Of a stretch of 64,000 bases of DNA, positions 26,421 to 31,799 are shown one piece after another. The DNA is taken from NCBI GenBank assembly GCA_030737835.1, contig CM060847.1, positions 14,735,779-14,799,778 on the forward strand, in the 5' to 3' direction. Positions within the stretch are counted from its first letter, which is position 1. Every line of letters begins with the position of its first letter. The notes beneath the pieces are model-generated. The model did no database searches, was not told the DNA's origin, and saw only the letters and a program-made list of their open reading frames with translations. The position numbers and the translations under genes are program-made. Source of the stretch: Acorus gramineus (Eukaryota; Streptophyta; Magnoliopsida; Acorales; Acoraceae).

Positions 26421-29400
26421 CTAGAAGAGTGATGTACCCTTCCCCTTCTTGTCCCCACCAATCTCAAAATGCTTGCACCTCTGCAAGAACACACATTAAG
26501 AGATAAAACATTACAAAATTTCGGCGGTATCATAAAACCTCAATTAAACAAGAATATACAACCACTAAAAATTTTACCTTGATTGGGTGCTGTGATACAT
26601 GCTTGCAACTCTGGCACTGCAGCCTCAAGACGATCTTCTTAGTTGTTTTGGCCTGAAATGAAAATTTTGATAAATTACTTTATGTGATGATTATTCAACC
26701 ATGAAATGATAAAAGATGATAGAACTTGCCTTTTTGTGGAATACAGGCTTGGTCTGTCCACCATAGCCTGATTGCTTGCGGTCATATCGTCGCTTCCCTT
26801 GGGCAGCAAGGCTATCTTTACCCTTCTTGTACTGGGTGACCTTATGCAAGGTGTGCTTCTTGCACTCCTTGCTCTTGCAGTATGTCTTCTTTGTTTTTGG
26901 GACGTTCACCTGCATGCGCCAAAGATAACACAATTAACAATGACCAAGGGGAAAAAAACCTATATGAACCTAATTCAGGATTGTTGACTAATGCATTTCA
27001 ACTTGATTTGTCCCTTTGTATATATTATTAAAAGTAGAATCAACATAAACATCAAGGTGTCAGAACTTATTTGAGGCTATCTTCAAAGATGAAATTCTTT
27101 TTTTGAGAAGCACAGAGATTTATCATAGCCAACCTTCAATGCAGAAAACACAACATCAACCAATTTTTTTTCCATTTTCTTTGTTACATGTATAGAATTA
27201 GAAACCAAAATTTGCCATGCAAAACAAACATAAATACTAAAAAAAAAAGTTTCTTATAAAGGTAGCATATGATACACAGACTAGAACATGATGGTAACTT
27301 ATGTCACACAGAAAATGATGTATTACTTCTTGTTGCAAATATACCATAATAAATACATACATGACATAGGAAGGAAGTGCAGCTATCCGTTCATGGTCAC
27401 CGAATAAGATAATAATTTAAGATGCACAGAAAACCATAACACAATGCTAACTTCAACACAGAGCAGACACCAAATGAAGTATTCTGAATATATATTGACC
27501 TTTCCTTTTGTTTCTTTATACTTAAAAGCACAATCAAGGTAACATCAAAATATAGCAACTTGTTCGAGGCCATCTTCAAGAGAGAATAAGGTTGAGAGGC
27601 ACGGAGAATTGCTTATCCTAGTTTATTATAGCCAACCTTCAATGCAGAAAACACAACATTTTAATCTATGTCTCCGCTCTGCAAATTGGCGTCTTACTAG
27701 TAGTGCAGTGCTTATTATTAACATCCTAAATAAACTTACCATTTGATTGGTTACAGGTGCAACAAATATTTGTCATGAAAAAATCAAAACAAGTATCAGC
27801 AAAAAAATGCTTAATGTAAAAGTAACATGTGATACTCATTGGTAAAAAACAGAAATTATGTGACATGTACTATGCAATTTTATCAGTCATATGGACACCC
27901 TATTTTAAGACATGGGTATCATAGTAAAGAAGTGTAAAAAGCTTTTCAATGTCACATTTAAAATATAAGAATTTAAGAGGCATGGAAAACAACAAGATTT
28001 TTTTTCTTAAGTAAGCACTAGAACTCAAATCCATGACCTCCTAAATTTTGTTGTCAACTATTGAGCTATGGGACTAAGTCCCAATAATAATAAGATTGTT
28101 ACGGCTAACTTTCAAAACAAAGGAAACATGATTTAAGCATTCTGAATTATTAATTACACTTGACTTGTCCTTTTATTTATTTTTACTTAAAAGAACATTC
28201 ATTGCAAACATAAAAAAATGTAGCAACTTGTTCGAGGCCATCTTCAAGATGATAGTAAAGTTGAGAGGCACGGAGAATTTGCTTTTCCATAATTTATTAT
28301 AGCCAACCTTCAATGCAGAAAACACAACATTTTAATCTATGTCTCCGCTCTGCAAATTGGCATCATACCAGTAGGGTCATGTTCTTTATTAACATCCAAA
28401 CAATCTTACTATTTAGTTTGTTACAAAAGCAACAAACATTTAACAAATACAAATAATGCTTAATGTAGACGTGTCATGAGACACTTGTTAGTACAAAACA
28501 TAATTTTTGTCACCTGAAAACTAATGTTATATATTCTTATCATATTGATGCCTCTTTTAGCCCATGGTAGGAGATAAAAAAGTGTCAAATCTTCTCAATG
28601 TCACTTTAGGAAAAGGAATTTAAAAAGCACATCGAACAGCAAGATTGTTATAGTAGACTTTCAATACAAAGCAAATAATATTTAAGCATTCAGAATTACA
28701 CCTGACTTAATACTTTTCTTTATTTATATACTTGAAAGCACAATCAATGCAAACATCAAATAATATGTAGCAACTTGTTCGAGGCCATCTGCAAGATGAT
28801 AGTAAAGTTGAGAGGCACGGAGAATTTGCTTTTCCATAATTTATTATAGCCAACCTTCAATGCAAAAAACACTACATTTTATTCTATGTCTCCGCTCTGC
28901 AAATTGGCATCATACCAGTAGGGTCATGCTCTTTATTAACATCCAAAACAATCTTACTATTTAGTTTGTTACAAAAGAAACAAACATTTAACAAATACAA
29001 ATAATGCTTAATGTAGACGTGTCATGAGACACTTGTTAGTACAAAACATAATTTTTGTCACCTGAAAACTAATGTTATATATTCTTATCATATTGATGCC
29101 TCTTCTAGCCCATGGTAGGAGTTAAAAAAGTGTCAAATCTTCTCAATGTCACTTCAGGAAAAGGAATTTAAAAAGCACATCGAACAGCAAGATTGTTATA
29201 GTAGACTTTCAATACAAAGCAAATAATACTTAAGCATTCGGAATTACACCTGACTTAATACTTTTCTTTATTTATATACTTGAAAGCACAATCAATGCAA
29301 ACATCAAATAATATGTAGCAACTTGTTCGAGGCCATCTTCAAGATGATAGTAAAGTTGAGAGGCACGGAGAATTTGCTTTTCCATAATTTATTATAGCCA

Positions 29401-31799: not shown

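Follow-up and report, generated by a model that had tools for sequence, protein, structure and literature searches.

A tandem array of the H/ACA snoRNA snoR86 within the first intron of an Acorus gramineus RPL36A gene

The first intron of an RPL36A (eL42) gene, located on the minus strand of the 64-kb stretch of Acorus gramineus DNA analyzed here (the window), harbors an array of a known plant H/ACA snoRNA, snoR86 (Rfam RF00303), as identified by an Rfam covariance scan. Eight host-strand copies keep the snoR86 pockets, stems, and boxes almost unchanged. Judging from the sequence, this intron would serve as a polycistronic snoR86 carrier, the copies being co-transcribed, freed, and employed as guides on 18S rRNA, and it would have grown by unequal crossing-over of a unit comprising one live and one dead copy; we assign this reading a probability of roughly 78%. 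Most likely, each copy would be transcribed as part of the RPL36A pre-mRNA and leave the intron as a separate H/ACA RNA of about 135–150 nt, after association with the H/ACA core proteins and trimming of its ends.

The host gene and its snoR86 units

The features of the host gene around the array are as follows:

31864..31896, plus strand: two AAACCCTA telo-box motifs (31864-31871 and 31889-31896), from a motif scan
31797..31799, minus strand: RPL36A exon 1, coding part (the ATG alone), from reading of the sequence and the intron edges
26910..31796, minus strand: RPL36A intron 1, 4887 bp, GT-AG (edges GTAATC...ATGCAG)
26730..26909, minus strand: RPL36A exon 2, from a protein match, with edges set by eye

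The extent of intron 1 proved exactly as originally predicted (31796 to 26910, minus strand, 4887 bp), and its GT-AG ends together with the reading frame suggest that it is spliced. A second RPL36A gene of the same genome, located on contig C4 and termed C4 here, has an intron 1 of 1991 bp, against the 4887 bp found in the window. Intron 2 of the window gene (26653-26729) is apparently of the GC-AG type, with GCAAGT read by eye at its 5′ splice site, and the same GC start of intron 2 was seen by eye in C4. The two telo-boxes precede the RPL36A ATG by 65 and 90 bp, the motif occurring 19 times on both strands of the whole window; upstream telo-boxes are also described for other plant ribosomal-protein genes in the accessible part of PMC4660826. 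A motif search between 31700 and 32600 detected no site II element of the TGGGCY form and one RGCCCA, at 32368. Of 18 listed open frames, 10 were searched and 4 gave matches; those to neighboring genes include exons resembling a PLP-dependent enzyme (PALP; 34581-36302, minus strand), the triose-phosphate transporter family (12647-13234, plus strand), and glycosyl hydrolase family 1 (52031-52462, plus strand).

In the whole window, the Rfam matches above the cut-off number eight, all of them snoR86, on the minus strand, and within RPL36A intron 1, with scores of 74.7–98 bits each against a gathering score of 40 bits. Relaxing the threshold over the intron region brought in a ninth unit, U9 (Rfam match 27056-27172), which scores 35.4 bits, below the cut-off, and reaches 45.2 bits (E 1.2e-9) when the model is derived from the eight other units and two C4 copies. 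In transcriptional order, the units are:

31327..31461, minus strand: U1, intact snoR86, the most divergent and most stable copy (98 bits; z −5.3, −5.6)
30957..31107, minus strand: U2, snoR86 whose minimum-energy fold lacks the normal 3′ hairpin (75.6 bits)
30407..30554, minus strand: U3, intact snoR86 (82.7 bits)
29858..30005, minus strand: U4, intact snoR86 (74.7 bits)
29310..29457, minus strand: U5, intact snoR86 (79.5 bits)
28762..28909, minus strand: U6, intact snoR86 (82.3 bits)
28215..28362, minus strand: U7, intact snoR86 (80.7 bits), equal to U5 over 149 aligned columns
27547..27691, minus strand: U8, intact snoR86 with AUA replacing ACA (88.6 bits; alignment)
27054..27184, minus strand: U9, decayed snoR86 (35.4 bits with Rfam, 45.2 bits with our own model; fold no better than shuffles)

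The original prediction had assigned to this intron nine tandem copies of a single H/ACA snoRNA, all in the orientation of the host. The host-strand tandem array is borne out by the eight minus-strand snoR86 matches, and nine homologous units are present, but only eight pass the Rfam cut-off, the ninth being decayed; the covariance check proposed at that time succeeds for eight units (at least 74.7 bits) and fails for U9 (35.4 bits, below 40). The spacing of 547–550 bp claimed for six units was recovered by tandem-repeat analysis as the five intervals joining U2 to U7, and the other intervals, depending on the end measured, are 355 to 370 bp (U1–U2), 668 to 671 bp (U7–U8), and 493 to 507 bp (U8–U9). 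Other repetitive stretches of the window include a GC-rich 66-bp tandem repeat (7426-7620), a two-copy repeat of about 145 bp (43212-43479), and a run of 26 G (62039-62064).

Weak Rfam matches to snoR43, snoU61, SMAD5-AS1_4, and a viral pseudoknot (E 1.1–5) were taken as chance. A C/D snoRNA in the window RPL36A intron was rejected after a scan for RTGAKGA followed by CTGA at most 130 bases on, in which intron 1 yielded no RTGAKGA C box; the same scan found three RTGAKGA C boxes in the C4 intron, all without a D box.

Structure, conservation, and predicted targets

Minimum-energy folds of U1, U3–U8, and the two intact C4 copies (C4a and C4b) comprise two hairpins, a hinge, and a tail. The standard 3′ hairpin is missing from the fold of U2, and no two-hairpin fold was seen in U9, which has lost the 5′ basal strand and whose fold energy was matched or beaten by 181 of 200 shuffles. 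The hairpin-hinge-hairpin-ACA layout initially ascribed to each unit is consequently found in U1 and U3–U7, but not in U9 (no fold), U8 (AUA), or U2 (no 3′ hairpin); the absence of a stable two-hairpin fold, which had been named as grounds for rejecting the idea, is true of U9 and partly of U2, while the other units fold. Three nucleotides before the predicted 3′ end, U1–U7, C4a, and C4b carry an ACA box and U8 carries AUA. Set by eye against the ANANNA form of the H box, the aligned hinge reads AUAAUA in U2–U8, and its last position is G in U1, C4a, and C4b. The basal stem of the first hairpin is GCCAAUU/GGUUGGC in most copies, and the left strand of this stem lies just upstream of the Rfam model start in every intact copy (31451-31461 and equivalents); RF00303 apparently has its 5′ boundary too far downstream.

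The fold energy of U1 is strong (z −5.3 and −5.6 in the two runs), those of U2–U8 are close to the shuffles (z +0.3 to −1.9), and for most copies the energy alone is not better than that of shuffles. The case for a snoRNA rests on homology and paired changes. The eight window copies aligned with the two C4 copies show a mean column identity of 85%, and double changes with pairing kept were found in 5 of 33 consensus pairs, in an alignment that has the U1 basal stem off by one column.

Variation among the copies is unevenly distributed. Across U2–U8, variable positions make up 25 of the 145 snoRNA columns free of gaps, compared with 207 of 350 columns elsewhere in the unit (Fisher 2.7e-18). Across the ten copies, no variation was seen in 37 of the 41 columns that form the pockets, the right basal strands, and the ACA box, compared with 33 of the 114 others (3.8e-12), the 41 columns having been assigned post hoc by the analyst with the alignment already seen. 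Within the youngest copies, U4–U6, the snoRNA carries 7 changes in 151 positions and the spacer parts 3 in 145 and 2 in 251, so snoRNA change is not lower than spacer change there. The two former contrasts, together with the lack of one in U4–U6, show selection, as read from sequence variation, on the snoR86 family and its older copies, and not on each new copy. The older copies U1 and U8 would have kept their function under selection, and the newest, U3–U7, whose snoRNAs differ by 0–4.6%, may be largely redundant.

The guide scans employed a stand-in 18S rather than that of the plant itself, namely a complete eukaryotic 18S in a bacterial assembly (L042; Rfam SSU_rRNA_eukarya match, 1817.8 bits). 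Eukaryotic ribosomal RNA is present in four bacterial genome records (L039–L042), of which L042 holds a full 18S and 5.8S, and this points to contamination of those assemblies. The plant 18S presumably carries letters matching the predicted sites. On the stand-in, the predicted targets of snoR86 are 18S rRNA sites. The best U for the 5′ pocket of U2–U8 is U302, with 8 of 300 shuffled guides as good, the corresponding figure for the C4 5′ pocket being 9/300; in U1, the 5′ pocket places U302 second (130/300), after U725 (87/300). Four boundary choices were considered for the 3′ pocket, two of which lead to U379 or U380 (0/300 shuffles each), a third to U358 (4/300), and the fourth to U379 without significance (89/300). 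The 5′ pocket would guide pseudouridylation of the 18S U at fungal position 302, which in yeast is a known pseudouridine with snR49 as its guide; the 3′ pocket would guide that of an 18S U at either the vertebrate U71/SNORA71 site or a second site about 21 nt downstream. We assume that human 18S position 406 corresponds to fungal 358. In the accessible part of PMC6466398, 18S-406 is the listed target of human U71C and D, and a table in the portion available of PMC2653536 groups chicken GGgACA8 (18S-367, 8+3 nt, 3′ pocket) with snoR86 and human U71a/b/c/d; given the 8+3 layout of GGgACA8, U358 fits best. SNORA71 did not guide a 28S site in yeast according to an excerpt of PMC8522698, and the accessible parts of PMC8522698 and PMC9483110 contain nothing on the predicted 18S sites.

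Decayed copies, array growth, and rival explanations

Most spacers of the array probably carry an older decayed snoR86, as suggested by shuffle tests, alignment, and a covariance model built from the ten intact copies:

30766..30897, minus strand: probable decayed snoR86, spacer 2 (9.5 bits, not significant alone)
30214..30345, minus strand: probable decayed snoR86, spacer 3 (7.1 bits, not significant alone)
29664..29794, minus strand: probable decayed snoR86, spacer 4 (shuffle test and alignment; no minus-strand model match)
29117..29246, minus strand: probable decayed snoR86, spacer 5 (5.2 bits; Rfam 20.1 bits, E 2.5)
28569..28698, minus strand: probable decayed snoR86, spacer 6 (no clear model match; 4.3 bits, part overlap)
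27930..28164, minus strand: decayed snoR86, spacer 7, split by an insertion (halves scored separately)
27370..27492, minus strand: probable decayed snoR86, spacer 8 (shuffle test; 7.9 bits, not significant alone)

Only the spacer-7 relic is significant by itself with this model, its 3′ half (27930-28033) scoring 25.2 bits (E 5.8e-5, or 7.5e-4 over the whole window) and its 5′ half (28046-28164) only 3.2 bits; four of the other six score 5.2–9.5 bits, in a range where plus-strand chance matches reach 10.3 bits. When U1 served as the query, 1, 1, 18, 1, 0, 0, and 0 of 300 shuffles reached the score of spacers 2 to 8, respectively, and spacer 1 gave no relic signal (267/300). The U2, U5, and U8 queries against spacers 2–8 were mostly not significant, with 3 to 204 of 300 shuffles as good. 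The relics of spacers 2–6 align with that of spacer 7 at 19–29% divergence. The insertion that splits the latter (at about 27995-28095) has a short duplicated flank and looks like a tRNA-derived element, both by eye; no second copy of it was found in the window and 22 loci of the same genome.

Our reading, of moderate confidence, is that each 548-bp unit pairs a working snoR86 with an older, dead one as a dimer spread by unequal crossing-over; multiplication of a unit in which one of the two copies was already dead would have produced the 548-bp period. The U7 snoRNA is identical to that of U5 over 149 columns and the segments after them differ by 28–29%, a combination that marks an edge of crossing-over or conversion at the snoRNA.

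The genome searched (398.6 Mb in 137 contigs) contains at least 10 snoR86 matches over the cut-off, eight in the window and two in intron 1 of C4, a count that is a lower bound because 45 of 49339 first-look candidates were scored. Both intact C4 copies exceed the cut-off of 40 bits (C4a and C4b, 89.3 and 86.4 bits), and a third copy in the same intron is decayed (34.2 bits, E 9e-7). Among the scored matches, snoR86 occurs only in intron 1 of the two RPL36A genes. When 9.9 kb around the C4 gene were compared with the window by blastn, the 20 matches obtained at E 1e-5 comprised only exons, snoR86 copies, and one interspersed repeat, the rest of intron 1 being unaligned. A tree of 12 sequences, in which one of nine inner branches is firmly supported, sets U2–U8 apart from U1, C4a, and C4b (95/91). 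The interspersed repeat, which by eye is probably a SINE derived from a tRNA, lies between the snoR86 copies of the C4 intron (L017 5776-5936); related sequences occur in the window at 47301-47462 and 17542-17653 (84.7% and 76.8% identity).

Whether so many copies serve dosage was weighed against these data. A selected amplifier, in which up to eight guides per host transcript raise the snoR86 supply in fast-growing tissue, is a plausible idea compatible with the sequence, which we nevertheless regard as rather unlikely. It draws on the intactness of eight of the nine main units, on a ribosomal-protein host with two upstream telo-boxes, and on human U71, which is multi-copy too (U71a/b/c/d, in the available portion of PMC2653536), with U71C and D lying in SNHG17 (PMC6466398, in part). 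However, the amplified block U3–U7 is young (0–4.6% snoRNA difference) and its retention therefore needs no selection, at least one copy lineage was dead before multiplication, as seen in the relics, U9 has died since, and the second RPL36A gene gets by with two intact copies; unequal crossing-over could have generated the recent copies without any benefit to the plant. Somewhat more doubtful still is selection on the live-plus-dead dimer array, with the copy number kept because snoR86-guided 18S pseudouridylation limits ribosome output in this lineage; if true, the array, multiplied within the intron of a growth-regulated ribosomal-protein gene, would represent among snoRNAs what higher-order repeats are among satellites, housed in a housekeeping intron.

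That the decayed partners still work as a distinct H/ACA guide, diverged toward another target, so that the intron would make two RNA species, is very unlikely: several relics keep an ACA-like triplet at the 3′ end, and in some pairs the relic differs less than the remaining spacer (e.g., U2–U7, 19% vs. 28%), but in others it differs more (U2–U3, 15% vs. 9%), and for the six relics folded (spacers 2–6 and 8) 46 to 168 of 200 shuffles fold as well. Least probable of all is a satellite or transposon resembling a snoRNA by chance, or an assembly artefact, for although the long 548-bp unit repeats together with its spacers, the covariance matches reach 98 bits, the units as assembled are not identical (U5 and U7 are distinguished by their spacers), and the identity with a transposon or satellite that would have overturned the idea finds no support, scored snoR86 matches being confined to the two paralogous RPL36A introns (45 of 49339 candidates scored).

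As a putative polycistronic carrier that would have grown by unequal crossing-over, the intron suggests that intronic snoRNA clusters may enlarge in this way by multiplying a composite unit whose edges lie at the conserved snoRNA. One guide present in ten intact copies within two host genes offers a natural series for asking if snoRNA copy number matters, with the dead snoR86 copies as an internal neutral control.

Comparison with known snoRNA arrangements

The array is an unusually large H/ACA case of the plant intronic snoRNA cluster, an arrangement already known, with several host-strand snoRNAs inside one ribosomal-protein intron whose GT-AG ends suggest splicing; its size, its H/ACA class, and the probable live-plus-dead dimer are what is special here. 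The presence of one or several snoRNAs in plant ribosomal-protein introns is established in the accessible parts of PMC4660826 and PMC8351944, in agreement with the premise that intronic snoRNAs are well established in such genes. With the clusters described there the array shares the host type, the host strand, and more than one snoRNA per intron, and it differs in that one RNA is repeated here whereas those clusters are mixed; snoR86 is not named in section 10 of PMC8351944. Within the open-licence literature, snoR86 is named in a single paper, and no paper joining L36a, snoRNA, intron, and Arabidopsis was found.

With snoR86 as represented by RF00303, whose vertebrate counterpart is U71/SNORA71 (PMC2653536, in part), the copies share sequence and structure over the whole model as well as a predicted 18S guide role; they differ in standing as eight tandem copies in one intron and in having a 5′ basal strand upstream of the model start. 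The Drosophila mfl gene, in the excerpt of PMC1821038, contains four isoforms of the C/D snoRNA DmSnR60 and thus resembles the Acorus gene as a host in which one snoRNA recurs as tandem isoforms, but there the class is C/D and each intron holds one copy, the rule its authors give for animals, whereas here all copies lie in one intron. Another homotypic tandem snoRNA array within one intron of a plant protein gene is maize Zm-19, a C/D snoRNA in five tandem repeats at 138-nt intervals, with counterparts in sorghum and rice (PMC6172812, in part). A decayed partner copy, probable here, is not mentioned for Zm-19 in the accessible text of that article, and in contrast to the C/D class, five copies, and shorter interval of Zm-19, the Acorus array is of the H/ACA class and comprises eight copies.
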